49,705 nucleotides of DNA, taken from Bacteroidaceae bacterium. GTDB lineage: Bacteria; Bacteroidota; Bacteroidia; Bacteroidales; Bacteroidaceae. Position 1 is the first letter of the stretch, and every line of letters starts with the position of its first letter. The DNA is taken from NCBI GenBank assembly GCA_017642425.1, contig JAGCPB010000112.1:1-49705 (forward strand), written 5' to 3'. The position numbers and the translations under genes were made by a program. The notes below the pieces were generated by a model that was given only the letters and a program-made list of their open reading frames with translations, was not told the origin of the DNA and did no database searches. Shown piece by piece: positions 1 to 20,617 of the stretch.

Positions 1-721
1 CCTTCTTGAACTCCTCAACCAACCAGTTGATGATAACCTGGTCAAAGTCATCACCGCCCAAGTGGGTATCACCGTTGGTGGCAAGTACCTCGAATACGCC
101 ACCGCCGAACTCCAGAATGGAGATATCAAATGTACCACCACCCAGGTCGAATACGGCAATCTTCATATCCTTGTTGGCCTTGTCAACACCGTATGCCAAA
201 GCGGCAGCGGTAGGCTCGTTCACGATACGCTTTACATCCAGACCGGCAATCTGACCGGCCTCCTTGGTGGCCTGACGCTGTGAGTCGCTGAAGTATGCAG
301 GCACTGTGATGACAGCCTCTGTCACCTCCTGACCCAGATAATCCTCGGCGGTCTTCTTCATTTTCTGAAGAATCATGGCGCTGATCTCCTGAGCGGTGTA
401 CAGACGTCCGTCAATGTCCACACGCGGCATGTTGTTGTCGCCCCTTACTACCTTATAAGGTACGCGGGCAATCTCCTTCTGCACCTGATCCCAGTTCTCA
501 CCCATGAAACGCTTGATTGAGAACACGGTACGCTGCGGGTTTGTGATAGCCTGACGCTTAGCCGGATCACCTATCTTACGCTCGCCGCCGTCAACGAAAG
601 CCACGATCGAAGGGGTTGTACGCTTACCCTCACTGTTGGCAATCACAACAGGCTCATTACCCTCAAATACTGAAACGCACGAGTTAGTGGTTCCAAGGTC
701 AATTCCAATAATCTTTCCCAT
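1..721 (-). CDS. dnaK: Chaperone DnaK (Hsp70), 5' part only
   Basis: Reading leftward from the ATG at 719-721, the protein begins [20 protein letters not shown], the universal DnaK phosphate-1 motif. It continues through [33 protein letters not shown] and [11 protein letters not shown], all Hsp70 ATPase-domain signatures. About 240 residues are present; the rest of the ATPase domain and the substrate-binding domain lie beyond the left edge. DnaK is the cytoplasmic ATP-driven chaperone that works with DnaJ and GrpE. No dnaJ or grpE is seen in the window. The upstream region (722-850) has no clear TAnnTTTG box at good spacing, so its promoter is not assigned. Identity is certain; the gene is partial only because of the window edge. 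Confidence 0.98.
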
Positions 722-844
722 AGTTGTATGTTTTTATTTGTTTGAACTCAAAATTTGACACTAGGGTATGTACAAATGGTATGCCACGATATTTGTAAGG
801 CCGATGACATGACAGATGTGACGATTTGGCAGAATTTTCCGCAC

Positions 845-990
845 CCCCCTGACCTTAGGGAACTGTAGCGCACGTACAGCCATTTTCTTCCCTAACGTGA
901 GCCGGAGATACGCCAGTACCTGCGTTACCCCCCTGACCTTAGGGAGCTACAACGCAGGTGGGGTCATTCCTCTCCCTAAGGTGAATAGGA
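845..990. repeat. Hairpin repeat array 1 (2 units, 84-base period)
   Basis: Two 47-base units lie at 852-898 and 936-982. Each starts with ACCTTAGGGA and ends with its reverse complement TCCCTAAGGT (the first unit has TCCCTAACGT), so each can form a 10-base-pair stem around a 27-base loop. The array ends about 25 bases from the stop codon of the RAYT gene. Loops and spacers match those of array 2 in the same orientation. Confidence 0.9.
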
Positions 991-1007
991 AATACGCTCG
1001 TACTTGC

Positions 1008-1976
1008 TTAGTATGCGCGGAGCTTCCGTGGGCGGTATTCATCGGGCAGCATGGATACCGGTATCGCGACGCAGCGTGCAGCCTGAATTGCGTTGATGTG
1101 ACAATCATGAATAAGTTCCTGAGCGATTTGGCATCGGCGCTTATCACTTAACTGATAGATACTCTTGGTCTTATATCGACCAAGAATATCGTTGTCCACC
1201 ACCGAGCAAACCTCCAGGTCATTCATGTTCACCACCGACGCCCGGCCGCCCATCTCATTCTTGAGCATATCGGACTCCGAGTCAAACTGCACGCCTTTCT
1301 CTATGATTTTCAATGTGATAGGATCGGCCGTTACATCGTCTTTCTCCTGTTCTTTTATCCAATCTTCGGTGGTGCGGCGATTCATATTATAAATGTAATT
1401 GGTGGGCGTACCGTACCACGACTCGGCAAGTCTGATTTCCTGGAATGTATTCCTTGATATAACACCTTGATTATCAATGGCAAAATTGTCGGGAAAGTCA
1501 GCATTTTTAGGCAAGTACGATTGAATTTCGGCCCGATTGTATGACAGACTCGGATCCTGAATACCCCTAGCGCGCGAAAAAATGTAATTGCAAGTGCTGA
1601 ACGGGTAAGCAAAAGCGGTCTCACTCTGGCCGTGATGCAAACCATTTCGGAGACAATAGTTTATGGCCATCTGGATATGTTTAGTCCCCTCCAACTTCCT
1701 AATAAACACCCTTTTATCAAAAAGTCTGCCAGTCCTTCCATAGATGTAGTTGAAATGTTTGGTCAAAGAATACCGCAGCGAGAGCGAGAATTTCTTGGGC
1801 GACTCAGACAGAATGATAAAGTGGACGTGGTTAGACATCACGGAGTCCGCAAGAATGCTGGTGTCATTTCTGAACGCAGCCAATGCCATGAGATTTGTGA
1901 AATCGCGGGCGTCGTCAAAATTTCTTGTCATGACCTCTTTATGTGCGGTCATGCAAACATGGAAAAGATCCTTCAT
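1008..1976 (-). CDS. REP-associated tyrosine transposase (Y1/HUH family)
   Basis: This is a single-stranded-DNA transposase of the Y1_Tnp family (IS200-like, RAYT type). The HUH metal-binding motif is seen as SNHVHFII (HVH at residues 50-52 from the chosen start). The catalytic tyrosine is in INYCLRNGLHHG (Tyr107), matching the YxxRNP-like motif of RAYTs. The protein is 322 residues, with a C-terminal part of about 150 residues after the Y1 domain that I do not recognise. A start at 2009 is possible, but MKDLFHV at 1976 gives the usual short N-terminus. There are no insertion-sequence ends or target duplications. Instead the gene is bracketed by arrays of one hairpin repeat, as for RAYT genes and REP/BIME sequences in other bacteria. 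That the enzyme acts on these repeats is inference. Confidence 0.88.
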   Translation of the reverse strand: MKDLFHVCMTAHKEVMTRNFDDARDFTNLMALAAFRNDTSILADSVMSNHVHFIILSESPKKFSLSLRYSLTKHFNYIYGRTGRLFDKRVFIRKLEGTKHIQMAINYCLRNGLHHGQSETAFAYPFSTCNYIFSRARGIQDPSLSYNRAEIQSYLPKNADFPDNFAIDNQGVISRNTFQEIRLAESWYGTPTNYIYNMNRRTTEDWIKEQEKDDVTADPITLKIIEKGVQFDSESDMLKNEMGGRASVVNMNDLEVCSVVDNDILGRYKTKSIYQLSDKRRCQIAQELIHDCHINAIQAARCVAIPVSMLPDEYRPRKLRAY

Positions 1977-2036
1977 AGTAATTATTATTTGGTTTAGAGT
2001 TAGTCGCAAACAACAGTGTTATTCACTTATCATTCG

Positions 2037-2044
2037 CAAATATA
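2037..2044 (-). promoter_or_regulatory. -7 box upstream of the RAYT gene
   Basis: On the minus strand this reads TATATTTG, a perfect TAnnTTTG. It lies about 60 bases before the ATG at 1976 and between the gene and array 2. No TTTG lies 19 bases upstream, so the promoter is tentative. Confidence 0.4.
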
Positions 2045-2093
2045 GATATTTAGTCCGATTCCCGATACATCCGACGAACACTTTTCCACTCCA

Positions 2094-2479
2094 CCCCCTG
2101 ACCTTAGGGAGTCGTAACGCACGTAGAGCCATTTTCTTCCCTAAGGTAAAGCGAAAATACGCCAGCACCTGCGTCACCCCCTCACCTTAGGGAACTGTAG
2201 CGCACATAGAGCCATTTCTCTCCCTAAGGTGGATAGGAAATACGCTCGTACCTGCGTCACCCCCTGACCTTAGGGAACTGTAACGCACGTAGGGCCATTT
2301 CCTTCCCCAAGGTGAGCTGGAAATACGCCAGCACCTGCGTCACCCCCTCACCTTAGGGAACTGTAACGCACGTAGAGCCATTTCCTTCCCCAAGGTAAAG
2401 CGAAAATACGCCAGCACCTGCGTCACCCCCTCACCTTAGGGAGTCAGAACGCAGGTGCAAACGATTTCTTCCCTAAGGT
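2094..2479. repeat. Hairpin repeat array 2 (5 units, exact 83-base period)
   Basis: Five 47-base units start at 2101, 2184, 2267, 2350 and 2433, each exactly 83 bases after the previous one. Arms are ACCTTAGGGA and TCCCTAAGGT (TCCCCAAGGT in units 3 and 4). Spacers of 36 bases carry ATACGCCAGCACCTGCGT-like sequence. The first four loops are of one type (GTAGCGCACGTAGAGCC-like); the fifth is a second type with AACGCAGGTGC. The array fills the space between the RAYT promoter and the recA terminator. There is no open reading frame of substance in it. Confidence 0.93.
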
Positions 2480-2493
2480 GGCTTGGCGGAGAG

Positions 2494-2526
2494 CAAAAAA
2501 AAGCGACCCGGGAAGGATCGCTTTTA
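2494..2526 (-). terminator. recA terminator
   Basis: On the minus strand, AAAAGCGATCC, a short loop and GGGTCGC form a hairpin that runs into eight Ts. It begins about 20 bases past the recA stop codon, so it is a rho-independent terminator for recA and lies just before array 2. Confidence 0.8.
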
Positions 2527-2546
2527 AGTTGAACACTGCAATTGGA

Positions 2547-3626
2547 TCAGTCGTTCATCATTTCGGAGTCATCATCAGGCTCGGGCTCCTGGGGGTTGCC
2601 CAGGATGGCGGCCATGATCTTGGCTTCCAGCTCCTCGGCCAGCTCAGGATTGTCCTGCATAACCTGCTTTGCTGCATCGCGACCCTGTGCCAGGCGTGTA
2701 TCGCCGTAGCTGAACCAGGATCCGCTCTTCTTTATGATGCCGTACTCCACACCCAGGTCAACAATCTCGCCCGATTTAGAAATGCCCTCGCCGAACATGA
2801 TATCGAACTCTGCCTTGCGGAAAGGAGGCGCAACCTTGTTCTTGACAACCTTGACGCGAACCTGGTTGCCAACCACCTCATCACCATCCTTAAGTGATGT
2901 CACGCGGCGGATATCCAGACGGACCGATGCGTAGAACTTGAGCGCGTTACCGCCGGTTGTTGTCTCGGGGTTACCGAACATCACTCCGATCTTTTCACGT
3001 AACTGGTTGATAAAGATGCAGGTAGTATTTGTCTTGTTGATGGTCGATGTCAGTTTGCGCAGGGCCTGGCTCATCAGACGCGCCTGCAGACCAACCTTGT
3101 TGTCACCCATATCGCCCTCAATCTCGGCCTTGGGAGTAAGGGCTGCCACGCTGTCAATCACGATGATATCGATGGCGCTGGAACGGATAAGCTGCTCGGC
3201 AATCTCCAGGGCCTGCTCGCCGTTATCGGGCTGTGAAATCCACAGATTATCAATGTCTACACCCAGTTTTGAAGCGTAGAATCGGTCAAAAGCATGCTCA
3301 GCATCAATAAACGCTGCAATGCCGCCGGCTTTCTGGGCCTCGGCAATGGCATGAATTGCCAAAGTTGTCTTACCGGATGATTCGGGACCGTAAATCTCAA
3401 TTATTCGGCCACGAGGATAACCGCCCACTCCAAGTGCGGCGTTAAGGCCGATGGAACCGGTTGAGATCACTTCAACATTCTCAACGCTCTCATCGCCCAG
3501 TTTCATGATCGAGCCCTTACCAAAGCTCTTCTCGATCTTGTCAGTTGCAGCCTGCAGGGCCTTGAGCTTCTCACTCAAACCCGCATTCTGAGGGCCTGAC
3601 GCACCCCCAATCTCTTTCTTTGCCAT
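2547..3626 (-). CDS. recA: Recombinase RecA
   Basis: RecA forms ATP-dependent filaments on single-stranded DNA for homologous recombination and activates LexA-type self-cleavage. It has 359 residues, normal for the family. The Walker A motif is GPESSGKT (residues 80-87). Other conserved segments are the DNA-binding region [21 protein letters not shown], seen in two parts ([10 protein letters not shown] and [15 protein letters not shown]), and [11 protein letters not shown]. The C-terminus is acidic ([13 protein letters not shown]), the usual regulatory tail. The start ATG at 3624-3626 matches the family. The gene stands alone with its own terminator. It is flanked on both sides by inverted copies of the hairpin repeat, which is unusual. 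Confidence 0.99.
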
Positions 3627-3714
3627 AATATGAATGGTTTAAATTTTCAAATCCCGAAGCGTGTTCTCCAAGGTATCACAACTTCAGCAAAGCGCCTCTT
3701 TGACGCTCCGTAGG

Positions 3715-3722
3715 CAAAGTTA
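3715..3722 (-). promoter_or_regulatory. Candidate recA -7 box
   Basis: On the minus strand this reads TAACTTTG, a perfect TAnnTTTG match, about 90 bases upstream of the recA start. No TTTG is seen at the expected spacing, so this is a half-supported promoter. No SOS box is recognised. Confidence 0.4.
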
Positions 3723-3788
3723 TAAAATCACACCACATATTATGAATTACCCGCAAAAAAATTATCAACAACCGCACACACCCCACCC

Positions 3789-4001
3789 ACCTTAGGGAAA
3801 AAATCGTTTGCACCTGCGCTACAGCTCCCTATGGTCACGGGGTAACGCAGGTACGAGCGTATTTCCAGCGCACCTTAGGGAAGAAATCGTTTGCACCTGC
3901 GTTCTGACTCCCTAAGGTCACGGGGTAGCCCGCGGGAAAGCGTATTTCCGGTTCACCTTAGGGATGAAAATGGCTCCACATGCGCTACAGCTCCCTAAGG
4001 T
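3789..4001. repeat. Hairpin repeat array 3 (3 units, inverted)
   Basis: Units lie at 3789-3835, 3872-3918 and 3955-4001, again 47 bases long with an exact 83-base period. Their loops are reverse complements of those in arrays 1 and 2, so the array is in opposite orientation. Unit 3872-3918 is an exact reverse complement of unit 2433-2479 over all 47 bases. The last unit ends about 50 bases before the tex -7 box. The whole 3627-4075 gap holds only this array and the recA and tex promoter regions. Confidence 0.93.
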
Positions 4002-4049
4002 CAGCGGGTAAGGTCAGGGGGTAACCCGCAGAATTTGCAGAAAACGTGC

Positions 4050-4057
4050 TATATTTG
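4050..4057 (+). promoter_or_regulatory. tex -7 box
   Basis: TATATTTG matches TAnnTTTG and lies 18 bases before the ATG at 4076. It overlaps the first in-frame ATG (4046), which argues that translation starts at 4076. The only upstream TTTG (4034-4037) is 12 bases away, closer than the usual 19. Confidence 0.5.
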
Positions 4058-4075
4058 CTGAAAGAATGCAATGAT

Positions 4076-6289
4076 ATGAACAAGGAATACGTAAGCATAA
4101 TAGTACGCGAGACCGGCCTGCGGGAGAATCAGGTGGAGAACACGCTGAAACTGTTGGAGAACGGCGCCACAATCCCCTTCATAAGCCGATACCGCAAGGA
4201 GTCCACCGGCGGCATGGATGAGGTTCAGGTCACTCAGGTGAGTGATGCGCTGGACCGTCTTGAGGAGCTGGCTAAGCGCAAGGAGACGGTCATCGGCACA
4301 ATAGAAAGTCAGGACAAACTGACTCCGGAGCTGAAAAACCGCATTGAGCACTGCTGGGATTCGGTGGAACTTGAGGACATCTATGCCCCCTACAAGCCGC
4401 ATCGCAAGACCAGGGCCGATGCCGCCCGCGAGAAGGGGCTGGAGCCGCTGGCGGAGTTCGTGATGAAGCAGAACCTTTCCTGTGAGCCAAACGACCAGAG
4501 TGAACTTGTTCACTTTGGCGTGGCGGGGAAAGGTCGGATAGAATCCAACCAGTACGTTCCGCTGGAGCGCGAGGCAAGCAAATATATAAATAAGGAGAAA
4601 GGCGTTGAGAGTGTGGACGACGCCCTGCAGGGTGCCATGGATATAATTGCCGAGCAGGTGTCGCTTGATGAGAGCGCCCGAAACCTGGTTCGCAGCGGAT
4701 ACCGCCGAGAGGCACGGATCTACAGCAAGCTGGTTCGCGGCAAGGAGGCCGAAGCCCAGAAGTTCCGTGACTGGTTTGACTTTAACGAGCCGCTCAAGCA
4801 CTGCGCGTCACACCGACTGCTTGCAATGCGTCGCGGTGAGGCTGAAGGTTACCTGCGCATATCGATAGAAATTGATGACCAGAAGACGGCCGATGCACTC
4901 TCCCGCCGATATGTCAGGGGCAAGTCAGAGGCATCGGAACTGGTGGATGAGGCGGTCCAGGACTCTTACTTCAGATTGCTTCAGCCATCGGTAGAAAACG
5001 AGTTTGCGGTACAAGCGAAGAGTGTGGCTGACGCAGAAGCAATACGCATATTCGCACGCAACCTGGAGCAGCTGTTAATGGCGTCTCCACTAGGCCAGAA
5101 GGCCGTTTTGGGCATAGATCCGGGGTTCCGTACGGGCTGTAAGGTGGTGTGTCTTGATGCGCAGGGAACACTGCTGCACAACGAGGCAATTTTTCCCCAT
5201 CCGCCGCACAATGAGGCACGTCAGGCAGCCGCAAAAATCCAGGCTCTGGTGGAGCAATACAAGATAGAGGCAATAGCAATCGGTAACGGTACGGCCGGTC
5301 GCGAGACCAAGGAGTTTGTGGAGCATCTGCGGCTGCCGGCGGGAGTACAAATTTATAGTGTAAATGAGGACGGAGCATCGATTTACTCCGCATCCAAGAC
5401 GGCGCGCGACGAGTTTCCGGACTATGACGTGACGGTTCGCGGCGCTGTGTCTATCGGCCGCAGATTAATGGATCCACTGGCAGAGCTGGTCAAGATTGAC
5501 CCTTCATCGATTGGCGTGGGGCAGTATCAGAAGGACGTGAACCAGACGGAGCTGAAGCACTCGCTTGACCAGACCGTGATCAGTTGCGTGAACCGCGTGG
5601 GTGTGAACCTGAACACGGCCAGCACGCATCTGCTTACCTATATTAGCGGTCTGGGGCCGCAACTGGCGCAGAATATTGTCGATTATCGGACTGAGAACGG
5701 CCCGTTCCATAACCGCAAGGAGCTGATGAAAGTGCCGCGCCTGGGGGCCAAGGCGTTTGAGCAGGCGGCAGGATTCCTGCGTGTACCGGGCAGTGACCAG
5801 CCGCTGGACAATTCGGCCGTTCACCCTGAGAGCTACGGCATTGTGGAGAAAATGGCGCGTGACCTGGGCTGCACGGTGCAGGAACTCATGAAATCACCGG
5901 AACTGCGCTCCAAAATTGACATAAACCGGTACGTGACTGACAAGGTTGGCATACCCACCTTGACCGACATAATGCAGGAGCTTGAAAAGCCCGGGCGCGA
6001 CCCGCGCGGTCCTCTGCGCAAGTTTGAGTTTTCAAATGAGGTCCACACCATTGAGGATGTCAAGCCCGGCATGATTCTGCCCGGCATTGTGAACAACATC
6101 ACAAACTTTGGCGCCTTTGTTGACATCGGCGTTCACGTAAAAGGCCTCATCCACATCTCCCAACTCTCTCCCGGCAAATACATCAAAGATCCCACCCAGG
6201 TGGTCTCGTTGCAACAACAGCTCCTGGTCAAAGTCCTAAGCGTAGACCTGGACCGCCAGCGCATCAGCCTAACAATGCAATTAGAATGA
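4076..6289 (+). CDS. tex: Tex-like RNA-binding transcription accessory protein
   Basis: Tex is a cytoplasmic nucleic-acid-binding protein of the Spt6-like family. It has 737 residues from the ATG at 4076. The order of domains is an N-terminal helical Tex_N region (about 1-190), a YqgF/RNase H-like domain starting around LGIDPGFRTGCKVV, a helix-hairpin-helix region (TYISGLGPQLAQNIVDYR) and a C-terminal S1 domain (ITNFGAFVDIGVHVKGLIHIS). The upstream in-frame ATG at 4046 overlaps the probable -7 box and was not used. The stop codon overlaps the next gene's ATG (ATGA at 6286-6289), so translation of pgeF is probably coupled. The role in transcription is known only for relatives. Confidence 0.96.
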   Translation: MNKEYVSIIVRETGLRENQVENTLKLLENGATIPFISRYRKESTGGMDEVQVTQVSDALDRLEELAKRKETVIGTIESQDKLTPELKNRIEHCWDSVELEDIYAPYKPHRKTRADAAREKGLEPLAEFVMKQNLSCEPNDQSELVHFGVAGKGRIESNQYVPLEREASKYINKEKGVESVDDALQGAMDIIAEQVSLDESARNLVRSGYRREARIYSKLVRGKEAEAQKFRDWFDFNEPLKHCASHRLLAMRRGEAEGYLRISIEIDDQKTADALSRRYVRGKSEASELVDEAVQDSYFRLLQPSVENEFAVQAKSVADAEAIRIFARNLEQLLMASPLGQKAVLGIDPGFRTGCKVVCLDAQGTLLHNEAIFPHPPHNEARQAAAKIQALVEQYKIEAIAIGNGTAGRETKEFVEHLRLPAGVQIYSVNEDGASIYSASKTARDEFPDYDVTVRGAVSIGRRLMDPLAELVKIDPSSIGVGQYQKDVNQTELKHSLDQTVISCVNRVGVNLNTASTHLLTYISGLGPQLAQNIVDYRTENGPFHNRKELMKVPRLGAKAFEQAAGFLRVPGSDQPLDNSAVHPESYGIVEKMARDLGCTVQELMKSPELRSKIDINRYVTDKVGIPTLTDIMQELEKPGRDPRGPLRKFEFSNEVHTIEDVKPGMILPGIVNNITNFGAFVDIGVHVKGLIHISQLSPGKYIKDPTQVVSLQQQLLVKVLSVDLDRQRISLTMQLE

Positions 6290-6975
6290 GCGATAGGCTT
6301 CTGAAATATGATATGGGAGCGGGTGTGGAGGCGTTCAGCACGGAGCGGGACGCTGAGTTGCCGTACTATGTGGTGCAGCCGCATCAGGTGCACGGATGTG
6401 TGATTCGTGAAGTTATTGATCCGATGACCACGCGTGATGAACTGGAAGGAGTGGATGCTCTGATTACCAATGTGCCGGGTGTGGCGATTTCTGTCCGAAC
6501 GGCCGATTGCATTCCGGTGCTGCTGTATGATCCTGTACATAAGGCAATTGCGGCGGTACATGCGGGATGGCGTGGTACAGTGCAGCGTATCTCCAACAAA
6601 ACAATAAAGGTGATGCAACAATTGTACGGGACCGATGCACATAAACTTCGCGCGGTCATTGGCCCGGGTATCGGCCCTGAAAGCTTTCAGGTTGGTCAGG
6701 AGGTGGCCGATGCATTTGCGCAGGCGGGATTCCCAATGGAACAAATTCTGCAGGATTGCGGACCCAAGCGTCCAACAGAACAGAACCCAATGCAGGGCGG
6801 ACTTCATATTGATCTGTGGAAAGCAAACCGCTGGCTGTTGGAGCAGGCAGGGGTAAAAAATTCAAACATTCAGGTGGCAGGAATATGTACCTATCGCAAT
6901 AATGACCGCTTCTATTCCGCCCGGCGTGAAGGTACAAAATGCGGGCGTATAATCAACTGTATCAAACTGTTGTAA
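6286..6975 (+). CDS. pgeF: Peptidoglycan editing factor PgeF / laccase-domain protein
   Basis: This is a member of the YfiH/DUF152 laccase-domain family, now described in E. coli as an editing enzyme that removes wrong amino acids from cell-wall precursors. It was earlier described as a polyphenol oxidase or purine-nucleoside enzyme. The three metal-ligand motifs are present: HQVHG, RTADC and VHAGWRGT. C-terminal motifs GICTY and YSARR also fit. It has 229 residues, near the usual length. It overlaps tex by four bases, forming a two-gene operon ended by a strong hairpin. Family assignment is firm; the exact substrate here is inferred from relatives. Confidence 0.92.
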   Translation: MSDRLLKYDMGAGVEAFSTERDAELPYYVVQPHQVHGCVIREVIDPMTTRDELEGVDALITNVPGVAISVRTADCIPVLLYDPVHKAIAAVHAGWRGTVQRISNKTIKVMQQLYGTDAHKLRAVIGPGIGPESFQVGQEVADAFAQAGFPMEQILQDCGPKRPTEQNPMQGGLHIDLWKANRWLLEQAGVKNSNIQVAGICTYRNNDRFYSARREGTKCGRIINCIKLL

Positions 6976-18576: not shown

Positions 18577-19806
18577 ATGGATCTGATTAAGAGATTTTTG
18601 GGCTATACGGCTGTAGATACGCAGTCGGATGAGAACTCTCAGAGTGTTCCCAGCACCGCAAAACAGATGAATCTGGCACGCCAGCTTAAGGCTGAGCTGG
18701 AGAGTATGGGACTTGAAGAGGTGTTTATGGATGATATGGGATACGTCTATGCCACGCTCCCTGCAAACACGGACAAGAAGATTCCTACGATAGGTTTCAT
18801 ATCGCACATGGACACCAGCCCCTCAATGAGCGGCAAGGATGTCAAGCCCAGAATTGTTGAGAAATATGACGGTGGAGACATAGTGCTGAACAAAGAACAG
18901 AATATAATTCTTTCACCAAGCCTCTTCCCGGAACTACTGGCGCATAAGGGTGAAGACCTAATTGTGACCGATGGCACCACCCTTCTGGGAGCCGATGACA
19001 AGGCCGGAATTGCAGAGATAATCACCGCTGTAGAGTATCTGCAGCAGCATCCGGAAATAAAGCACGGCCGTGTTCGCGTAGGTTTCAATCCAGATGAGGA
19101 GATTGGCATGGGCGCCGCTCACTTTGATGTGGAGCGTTTTGGATGCCAGTTTGGTTATACCGTTGATGGCGGTGAGGTTGGTGAAATGGAGTACGAAAAT
19201 TTCAACGCCGCCAAGGCCGTATTCAAAATACAGGGCCTGGAAGTGCACCCGGGATATGCAAAGGATAAGATGGTCAACGCTTCACTGTTGGCCGCAGAAC
19301 TGATAAAGATGTTCCCTGTAAACGAGACTCCAGGCACAACTCAGGGATATGAAGGATTCTATCATCTGGTAGGCCTTAACGGTGAGGTTGACCATGCATC
19401 GGCCATATTCATCATACGCGACCATGATCGCGCCAAGTTTGAGCAGCGCAAGGCATTTGCCAGGAGCGTGGCAGACAAGATGAACGCCAAATACGGCAAG
19501 GATACCATTGTGGCCGAGGTTACAGACCAATATTACAACATGAAGGAGCAGATTGACAAGGTACCGTATGTGGTTGACATTGCTTGCGATGCAATGAAGC
19601 TGGCAGGTGTGAATCCCGTCAAGGTTCCCATACGCGGCGGTACGGACGGCGCCCAGCTCTCATTCAAGGGACTGCCCTGCCCCAACCTCTTTGCAGGCGG
19701 CATGAATTTCCACGGCCGCTATGAGTGGGTTCCCATCCAGAGTATGGAAAAAGCCATGATGACGGTGGTTAAGATTATTGAAATAGTAGGCAAGAGAGAT
19801 TGGTAA
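18577..19806 (+). CDS. pepT: Peptidase T (tripeptide aminopeptidase)
   Basis: PepT is a cytoplasmic M20-family dizinc aminopeptidase that removes the N-terminal residue of tripeptides. The protein is 409 residues, normal length. Metal and catalytic residues are seen in ISHMDTSPS (His, Asp), [12 protein letters not shown] (Asp), [11 protein letters not shown] (Glu-Glu), [10 protein letters not shown] (Asp) and, near the C-terminus, [14 protein letters not shown] (His). A strong hairpin terminator lies five bases after the stop codon. It stands alone between the SDR gene and the convergent SRP RNA. Confidence 0.97.
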
Positions 19807-19810
19807 AACA

Positions 19811-19842
19811 GAGAAGGCCACCGCAGAGGTGGCCTTCTTGTA
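19811..19842. terminator. pepT terminator, probably bidirectional
   Basis: AGAAGGCCACC (19812-19822) and GGTGGCCTTCT (19828-19838) form an 11-base-pair stem with a five-base loop. Ts follow on the right, and on the minus strand CTCTGTTTTACC follows, so it may also end the SRP RNA. Confidence 0.85.
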
Positions 19843-19857
19843 TGAGATGGGTAAGCG

Positions 19858-19965
19858 GGCTACATCGCGCCGCTACAACCGACGTACCTTTGCTGCCGTC
19901 AAGCCCTGGAGGGTTAGAAGGGAGCTGGCCGTGTAGGACTTACCCGGCACGAAGGTACGGCTTTT
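19858..19965 (-). ncRNA. ffs: Probable signal recognition particle RNA (small SRP RNA)
   Basis: On the minus strand the RNA starts near CCGTACCTT and ends near AAGGTACGTCGG, which pair to close the molecule. Near the 3' side is the domain IV hairpin: CAGG, then GCU, tetraloop UGAC, GGC, then AGCA, followed by AAGG. CAGG facing AGCA is the symmetric internal loop bound by Ffh, and UGAC fits the URRC tetraloop class known in SRP RNAs. No protein frame fits the region. The ends are approximate, and a covariance-model search would settle the call. It is convergent with pepT and divergent from the DUF4199 gene. Confidence 0.65.
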
Positions 19966-20000
19966 ATTTGAATCTGCAATCGGCAATAAAAAGAAATGAT

Positions 20001-20008
20001 TAAATTTG
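20001..20008 (+). promoter_or_regulatory. -7 box of the DUF4199 operon
   Basis: TAAATTTG matches TAnnTTTG and lies 18 bases before the ATG at 20027. No TTTG at 19 bases upstream is visible. Confidence 0.45.
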
Positions 20009-20026
20009 CAGATTATTATAAGAATT

Positions 20027-20617
20027 ATGGAAGAACAGGAGGGCAAGAAAGTGATAAAGATAAACCTGCTGCAGACGTCAATGACGTTGGGCTCGTATCT
20101 TGGCGCATACATGATACTGGCGTATCTTGTCACGGTCCTTACAATCAAGTACCCCGCCCTGTCACTTCTGGCACTGCCTTTGCTGCTTGGAATTCCGGTT
20201 GTGGCTTTCTTCCTGATTAAGCGTTTCCGCGACTCCACACAGGTGCCGTTCTTCCCGTTCCCCCTGTCTTGGATGATCTCCATCCTTACGTTCCTGTTCG
20301 CCACGGTGCTGTCATGCATGGTGGCATACCTCTACCTGCGTTATTTGGACCACGGCGCACTGGCAAACGGCCTTATGGCGCGCATGGAAATGATGATGCA
20401 GTCAACACAGGCTGTGACATCGGCCATGACAGACCAGGCACAGGTGGAGCAATACAACAAGTCTATGGAGCTTATGCAGCAGACAATTACATGGTTCTGC
20501 TCGCTGTCGGCATCGGCCATGACCAAACAGCTGATCCAGGCGTCACTCATGTGGGGCAACATACTGTCACTGATAATCGGACTGATAACAGCTAAAAGAT
20601 TAAAACTCAATCAATAA
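20027..20617 (+). CDS. DUF4199 family membrane protein
   Basis: The protein is 196 residues from MEEQEGKKVIKINLLQ; an ATG seven codons upstream sits on the -7 box. It has four predicted membrane segments (around LGAYMILAYLVTVLTI, LALPLLLGIPVVAFFLI, WMISILTFLFATVLSCMV and WGNILSLIIGLI) with a methionine- and glutamine-rich stretch between the third and fourth. This matches the DUF4199 family, which is common in Bacteroidetes just before a dolichol-phosphate-mannose-type glycosyltransferase, exactly as here. The function is unknown; gene order suggests a role with that transferase. Confidence 0.82.
   Translation: MEEQEGKKVIKINLLQTSMTLGSYLGAYMILAYLVTVLTIKYPALSLLALPLLLGIPVVAFFLIKRFRDSTQVPFFPFPLSWMISILTFLFATVLSCMVAYLYLRYLDHGALANGLMARMEMMMQSTQAVTSAMTDQAQVEQYNKSMELMQQTITWFCSLSASAMTKQLIQASLMWGNILSLIIGLITAKRLKLNQ

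Follow-up and report, generated by a model that had tools for sequence, protein, structure and literature searches.

In the accessible sections of the published classification of RAYT proteins (PMC6006769), class 2 TnpAREP/RAYT proteins combine the tyrosine motif Y[IV]xxNP with a conserved W[EQ]. Among them, subclass 2.6 (Quentin et al. 2018; Bertels group 5) is described there as mostly from Bacteroidetes, with HuH and one Tyr, a median length of 179 aa, WQ, YIH[QN]NP and a HuH–Tyr distance of about 82, and its genes as flanked by 'atypical secondary structures' that lack GT[AG]G and have copies elsewhere. By the same sections, subclass 1.2 has DH[IV]H, Y---Q--HH, about 148 aa and no REPs. 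The REPtrons of E. coli (group 2) and of Pseudomonas and Stenotrophomonas (group 3), as far as the available part of their description goes (PMC8266576), combine a single-copy HuH-Y1 protein with adjoining and dispersed intergenic cognate palindromes of 20–50 bases that bear a GTAG foot; the RAYT/REP experiments described in that part use proteobacterial GTAG REPs.

Here we describe a RAYT-like gene of a Bacteroidaceae bacterium that lies between arrays of one hairpin repeat. As in class 2, the protein has a Y1 core with HuH and one catalytic Tyr, the gene is of low copy number without IS-like movement (one full copy, with constant neighbours in the genomes that hold an orthologue), and cognate palindromic repeats both adjoin it and are dispersed; in place of Y[IV]xxNP and W[EQ], however, it has YCLRNG and no W at that position. 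N-P follows the Tyr in 13 of 38 relatives, which puts the family near class 2 and the window member outside the printed motif. Compared with what the accessible text says of subclass 2.6, the Bacteroidetes host and the flanking hairpins without GT[AG]G agree, the repeats being matched by description only, whereas the window RAYT differs in its 322 aa, the lack of WQ, YCLRNG, a HuH–Tyr distance of 57 and a large C-terminal part. With subclass 1.2, as described in those sections, it shares HH at Tyr+7/+8 but has NHVH, N instead of Q at Tyr+4, a length of 322 aa and repeats. On sequence features, the nearest described subclass in the accessible text appears to be Bacteroidetes 2.6, from whose printed motifs the window member departs.

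Measured against the available description of the classical REPtrons, the system is alike in its single-copy HuH-Y1 protein, its adjoining and dispersed intergenic palindromes, co-evolution and a strand-marking 5′ foot; it differs in having a C5T(G/C)A foot, a long loop, a fixed 83-base tandem period and an extra C-terminal domain. With its single-copy protein, cognate hairpins and strand-marking foot, it would by sequence work like a REPtron. Because it has neither the published REP foot nor the length, W motif and Tyr motif printed for subclass 2.6, we regard it as a variant of the RAYT/REP kind, outside the subclasses described in the accessible sources. Among the best-matching open-licence PMC papers, none was found on this hairpin repeat or on RAYTs of this genus.

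The RAYT locus and its hairpin arrays

The window, that is, the whole stretch of 49,705 nucleotides analysed, is an entire contig of a draft genome of 2.62 Mb that is 87% complete. An earlier note on this DNA had described two arrays of 2 and 5 units, in one orientation and with an 83/84-base period, and had placed HVH and Tyr107 in the ORF at 1008–1976 on the minus strand; these coordinates and positions were confirmed (Table 1). The note had missed array 3, which lies between recA and tex and is inverted relative to arrays 1 and 2, and the arrays on six other contigs. In array 1 the foot CCCCCTGA stands ahead of each unit, and the partial spacer at the end of the array adjoins the RAYT stop.

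At up to one mismatch, the 9-base arm occurs 26 times in the window, compared with a mean of 8.6 and a maximum of 16 in shuffled sequences. At up to three mismatches, the two-arm pattern is found at 30 places in the source genome, on the window contig and the six others, compared with 2 for a reversed-pattern control. Both excesses indicate that the arrays are not due to chance.

Several other readings were tried. No tRNA was detected, positions 1–6300 gave no Rfam match up to E=1 that would suggest a CRISPR-like or other RNA, and a terminator scan detected two terminator-like sites, both outside the arrays. PADLOC returned no match for the RAYT as a defence gene, and 50,697 phage and 72,556 plasmid records yielded no match for the locus as cargo. 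Separately, tex contains an in-frame insertion of ~72 bases (window 4475–4547) through which reading continues; it is absent from the compared relatives, and nothing else among the fetched loci matches its sequence.

Table 1 Features of the window, and hairpin arm types beside related RAYT genes
Feature	Position	Strand	Remarks
dnaK, 5′ part, cut by contig end	2..721	-	Pfam HSP70 3e-118
Array 1	845..1007	+	2 hairpin units, 852-898 and 936-982; spacing 84
RAYT-like Y1/HuH gene	1008..1976	-	322 aa; ATG at 1976, stop 1008-1010
Tyr107 codon	1656..1658	-	Invariant in 38/38 aligned relatives; motif YCLRNGLHHG
HVH codons, residues 50-52	1821..1829	-	His50 and His52 invariant in 38/38 aligned relatives
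Array 2	2094..2480	+	5 units, orientation as array 1: 2101-2147, 2184-2230, 2267-2313, 2350-2396, 2433-2479; spacing 83 each
recA, between arrays 2 and 3	2547..3626	-	Pfam RecA 4e-143
Array 3	about 3786..4026	-	3 units: 3789-3835, 3872-3918, 3955-4001
tex, beyond array 3	4076..6289	+	Pfam Tex domains
CGTTAGGGA arms	G119:C40		Protein 63% identical to window RAYT
CGATAGGGA arms	G213:C23		Protein 53% identical
GGATAGGGA arms	G216:C3		Protein 52% identical
GTTAGGGA arms	G214:C66		Protein 47% identical
TAGTGTCCGC arms	G119:C47		
AGCGTCC arms			Several ~40% relatives
GCCGTACTTGC, GCCATACTTGC, GCCAAAC, GCCAATA and other arms			At further RAYT paralogues

Anatomy of the hairpin repeat

A unit consists of the arm CCTTAGGGA, a 27-base loop and the arm′ TCCCTAAGG, followed by a 38-base spacer. 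The 10-base arms given in the earlier note hold for the best window units (ACCTTAGGGA/TCCCTAAGGT), but in the first unit and two units of array 2 the 9-base arms show one mismatch. For wider counts we used 47 arrays with 177 units, drawn from 30 chosen loci of the source genome and its relatives rather than from whole genomes and including orthologous arrays; the counts of array ends, feet, closest units, loop and spacer exchange and gene positions given here and below come from the same sample (the gene-position count omits L061, and the exchange comparison omits L061 and some genomes). Unit spacing in this sample is 83 or 84 bases in 126 of 130 neighbour pairs (83 in 115, 84 in 11, 82 in 3 and 99 in 1), and unit orientation is mixed in three of the 47 arrays. 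Judged by eye, loop and spacer are alike when read in opposite directions (GGAAAT..GC...C.TGCGT), which suggests that an array is a chain of alternating half-units. Alternating inverted copies, and arrays of them, are also known from BIMEs and REPINs (REP doublets); here, by contrast, arm–loop–arm and arm–spacer–arm′ use one arm, and the arrays contain no evident separate internal hairpin of fixed sequence.

On one strand the hairpin is preceded by a foot, CCCCCTGA or CCCCCTCA, that is, CCCCCT(G/C)A. On the foot strand, 153 of 177 units have CCCC at most 10 bases from the hairpin, versus 22 of 177 on the other, while GT[AG]G lies within that distance in 2 of 177 units on each strand; the canonical REP foot is thus missing, as expected from the earlier view that this is not a classic GTAG REP. 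At outer left array ends the eight bases CCCCCTGA are conserved (64–95% per position, 44 ends), with nothing conserved beyond them, and right ends keep T(G) plus a weaker G-rich stretch. The two kinds of end tend to mirror one another, with a CCC foot at 42 of the 47 left ends and 24 of the 47 right ends.

Folding as single-stranded DNA gave −9.7 to −12.2 kcal/mol for the arm stem of array 2 (z about −1.8 to −2.4) and −9.8 to −11.3 kcal/mol for its spacer hairpin (z about −3.6); the arm-mismatched units of arrays 1 and 3 folded unremarkably (z about −0.8). Arm covariation was examined in 28 units, 26 of them distinct, that represent five arm types. Both-sided changes affect 3 of 10 arm pairs and amount to 20 cells, compared with 7.1 on average in shuffles, none of 500 shuffles reaching 20; the other 7 pairs never vary. 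Two of five covariation measures were weak, pair counts being reached by 167 of 500 shuffles and further pair types by 23 of 500. Paired arm cells make up 99.2%, a percentage biased upward by the choice of units mostly with intact arms, and sliding the partner arm lowers pairing to 33–55%.

The RAYT protein

The identification as a RAYT made in the earlier note was supported by profile searches. Pfam Y1_Tnp matches the protein at E=0.016, which falls short of the cut-off, and a PF01797 search of the source genome gave no match at E≤0.001. The NCBIfam model REP_Tyr_transpos (NF047646) matches at 7.8e-7, with 29 bits against an 80-bit cut-off, and also matches 28 of the 38 aligned relatives at E≤0.01. 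Searched against the PDB, the profile of the 38 relatives has as its top match E. coli TnpAREP (4er8, E=9e-4), followed by IS200-type transposases at E 0.28 or worse. An AlphaFold2 model from the same alignment (mean pLDDT 92, pTM 0.90) shows the order E3-10, H20-36, E40-46, E50-57, H60-79, E90-94, H98-109, that is, beta-alpha-beta-beta-alpha-beta-alpha with Tyr107 in helix 98-109, the fold being judged from this secondary-structure order. Together, the matches and the model support the window protein as a divergent Y1/HuH protein, a presumed relative of RAYT/TnpAREP.

The C-terminal part is all-helical in the model, and its final ~70 residues have the conserved pattern SD..VC..ID ... S.Y.L ... 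RC. PDB profile and Pfam searches assigned this domain to no convincing known family: its PDB matches, to protein A constructs, included no single stretch that passed alone, and six Pfam models matched one member each (E 0.02–0.28); we took both as chance. PHROGs gave one weak match of unknown function (E=0.0024).

RAYT clades and hairpin arms

RAYT paralogues are likewise flanked by recurrent long-loop hairpins, with arms that differ between paralogues (Table 1). We scored 80 loci, kept from 119 relatives found by one peptide pattern, all from Bacteroidia or a lower group within it and including some duplicate genus-genome loci. At least two recurrent hairpins lie within 600 bases of the RAYT at 63 of 80 loci, compared with 7 of 79 control regions 1.8–2.4 kb away and 35 of 1600 shuffles; for at least three the counts are 24 of 80, 2 of 79 and 1 of 1600. 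By the same test 17 of the 80 loci have no recurrent hairpin.

Arm similarity follows protein identity (Mantel r=0.677; reached by 0 of 9999 permutations, the largest permuted value being 0.239) among 56 RAYTs dereplicated at <90% identity from 80+8 loci, after 20 of the 88 loci had been dropped for want of a usable recurrent hairpin; below about 50% protein identity it is at baseline. Linkage and shared descent can yield part of this correlation, and, against a pairing, arms beside the gene could co-diverge through shared descent alone. Dispersed copies that carry the arms of the local RAYT appear to add independent weight for cognate pairing. Hairpins of the form GATAGGGA/N28 number 40 in G213, 36 in G216 and 7 in G215, and none occur in the 34 other genus genomes; G213 and G216 are the two genomes with a 52–53% identical RAYT, while G215 has its 7 units yet no RAYT match. 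The CGTTAGGGA/N27 hairpins are confined, among 37 genomes, to G119 (18) and G175 (1, at the RAYT locus). Of the 37 genomes, 10 contain TACTTGC/N29 hairpins, nine of them together with a RAYT of that clade or its remnant; the tenth, G205, has 4 units and no such RAYT, and G224 has a RAYT of this clade and no exact TACTTGC unit. In the sequences compared, the arms differ between RAYT clades yet remain complementary.

In G214, RAYT matches were found at eight places (L088, L096, L099, L100, L101, L108 and L111 are those listed), several with different hairpin arms. The source genome itself holds, at C81 ~19639–20420 (L052), pieces of a second RAYT, interrupted and belonging to another clade, which TACTTGC-type hairpins adjoin.

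Distribution of gene and repeat

The genus was sampled by 37 draft MAGs of 62–100% completeness, of which six hold an orthologue 90–100% identical to the window RAYT. At up to two mismatches these six contain 29 (G000), 37 (G221), 28 (G175), 91 (G217), 41 (G222) and 7 (G133) units. G119 was set aside, since its 19 matches to the CCTTAGGGA-type search belong to its own CGTTAGGGA type. Among the remaining 30 congeners without the orthologue, 20 have no units and 10 have 1–22. The expectation in the earlier note that repeat abundance would track the gene was therefore borne out in numbers, with 7–91 CCTTAGGGA-type units against a median of 0 (Mann–Whitney p=3e-5, Fisher p=0.004, counting genomes as independent and ignoring kinship), but not as a strict rule: the ten carriers whose assemblies lack the orthologue partly fulfil what the note had named as grounds for refutation. 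At up to one mismatch the repeat is found in 14 of 399 genomes overall, all 14 within the genus, and in 0 of 366 family genomes outside it.

In seven of these ten the dnaK–recA interval is assembled and lacks the gene (units: G189 13, G225 19, G219 4, G218 3, G161 2, G203 1, G024 1), which implies that the repeats can outlast the RAYT or do without it; the units in these genomes may be relics. The source-genome contigs C31 and C42 both terminate within one array, which is unbroken in G224 (L060, L061, L189), and the two arrays that G000 has at contig ends probably form a single array. Arrays thus break draft assemblies and may hide a RAYT in other MAGs.

A model for the RAYT–hairpin system

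The locus is probably a REPtron-like system, in which a conserved single-copy Y1 HuH-tyrosine nuclease is paired with its own hairpin-repeat family. The geometry, the foot, arm pairing, co-divergence, cognate distribution and a change of unit number at one site are all read from the sequences, and the pairing suspected in the earlier note is strengthened by arm and protein co-divergence, compensatory arm changes and orthogonal repeat families that track their own RAYTs. We propose that the site comprises a loop of ~27 bases enclosed by two complementary arms of ~10 bases, with CCCCCT(G/C)A ahead on one strand, and that sites are chained through the 38-base spacer into 83-base tandem arrays. 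When single-stranded during replication, the arms would fold into a hairpin; the arm sequence would identify the RAYT's own hairpins, and the C-rich foot would mark the strand, as GTAG does in classical REPs. H50 and H52 would hold the metal, and Tyr107 would cut beside the hairpin and rejoin the end to another hairpin, adding, removing or swapping units and occasionally seeding a new intergenic array. What we infer here is that the protein binds, cuts and transfers strands and that repeats reach new sites, as well as any benefit to the host.

Matching gene and hairpin versions in gut and rumen relatives point, at the sequence level, to a family of enzyme and DNA-repeat pairs that has been little described. 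More tentatively, and with somewhat less than even confidence, we suggest that these form a separate REPtron clade, widespread in gut and rumen Bacteroidales, with long RAYTs whose C-terminal domain belongs to no known family and similar long-loop geometry. In such a clade the arms would serve as an address code, one genus, and even one genome such as G214 with at least three arm types, would hold several mutually orthogonal enzyme/hairpin pairs, and loops and spacers would be small exchangeable cassettes. For the question of how RAYTs recognise and spread REPs, closely related enzymes with stepwise different arms (CCTTAGGGA, CGTTAGGGA, CGATAGGGA, GGATAGGGA) and similar geometry are a natural series, a ready set for swaps that could reveal the residues that read the arms. 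The dispersed repeats also have practical weight in a major gut and rumen lineage, where they break assemblies and sit at rearrangement points around recA.

Array dynamics and alternative explanations

The order dnaK, RAYT, recA, tex is identical in G000, G221, G175 and G133. In G222 (L085) recA is inverted and in G217 (L084) the RAYT/recA block is rearranged, in both with arrays at the joints; G217 has one 9-unit array in place of two G000 arrays and the intervening 2.8 kb, and in its comparison with G175 the junction is rearranged and fuzzy. The arrays are old and common to several species at the same sites, and their unit numbers vary: the recA–tex site has 3 units in G000, 4 in G221, 3 in G201 and 1 in G218. 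No clean empty site was found in the recA–tex or dnaK–recA intervals of relatives, which are too divergent. In four genomes roughly every second unit is most similar to another unit of its own array (15/30, 30.5/62, 10/22 and 9/16, ties halved). As a side observation, oppositely oriented arrays may flip recA (equivalent of window 2487–3780; L085, L084); around the inverted recA of G214 no own-type arrays were found (TAGGGA pattern, generic hairpins).

Such rearrangements, including the recA inversion and the 2.8-kb loss, resemble ordinary recombination, and could be read as the work of passive arrays whose tandem hairpins are gained, lost and converted through RecA-dependent recombination or slippage during replication, with the part of the RAYT long past or the gene merely adjacent and its selected role elsewhere. 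The persistence of arrays in gene-less genomes and at shared sites with varying unit numbers fits this account as well. It does not explain why arms follow the protein clade and why the arms of dispersed copies match those at the local RAYT. Among 1716 loop pairs, moreover, the 54 near-identical ones from different arrays have neighbours 77% alike versus a background of 66%, only 7% of these pairs having neighbours at least 92% alike, and near-identical spacers (21 of 1027 pairs) have neighbours 77% alike versus 65%. Near-identical pieces with mostly unlike neighbours indicate that the copied tracts are short, and short pieces would thus be exchanged, whether by the RAYT or by recombination. 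We consider a purely passive origin unlikely.

The six orthologues are uninterrupted, with dN/dS of 0.044–0.105 (0.04–0.11 when rounded), and by these ratios the gene is under strong purifying selection; with one intact copy and constant dnaK/recA/tex neighbours, this agrees with the earlier suggestion of a domesticated gene. Selection of this kind, together with the intergenic position of the arrays (0 of 46 overlapped by a long ORF reaching beyond), would also suit host-function sites, bound for nucleoid organization, supercoiling, or transcript stability or termination, with the RAYT kept to maintain or read arrays, not to spread them. The arrays, however, contain no terminator-like site and have no Rfam match, and their gene positions (22 tandem, 13 divergent, 6 convergent and 5 contig-edge, orthologous arrays being counted more than once) show no terminator bias, which leaves this explanation with a small probability.

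The REPtron-like reading is also to be set against a conventional IS200/IS605-like or terminal-repeat element with the arrays as its ends, which we judge the least probable of all: the Y1 catalytic core and fold, hairpin-marked DNA on both sides and mirrored array ends recall TnpA elements such as IS608 and ISDra2, but there is one full gene copy plus one broken remote paralogue instead of many near-identical copies with defined ends, the protein is about twice as long, the locus is the same in the orthologue genomes, repeats far outnumber the gene, and phage and plasmid records gave no match.

Two further observations concern the locus in relatives. RAYT dS is 0.025 between G133 (L045) and G222 (L085), where the adjacent recA has 0.342, and 0.283 between G000 and G221, where recA has 0.618; these values suggest an exchange of the RAYT allele between species, with the locus itself staying in place. 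In the dnaK–recA interval, L145 (G218) and L147 (G161) carry an inverted-repeat insert with GGGGCACAAAGGGGACGGTTCTTTTTGTGCCCC-like ends that also occurs near other genes and is another short mobile element.
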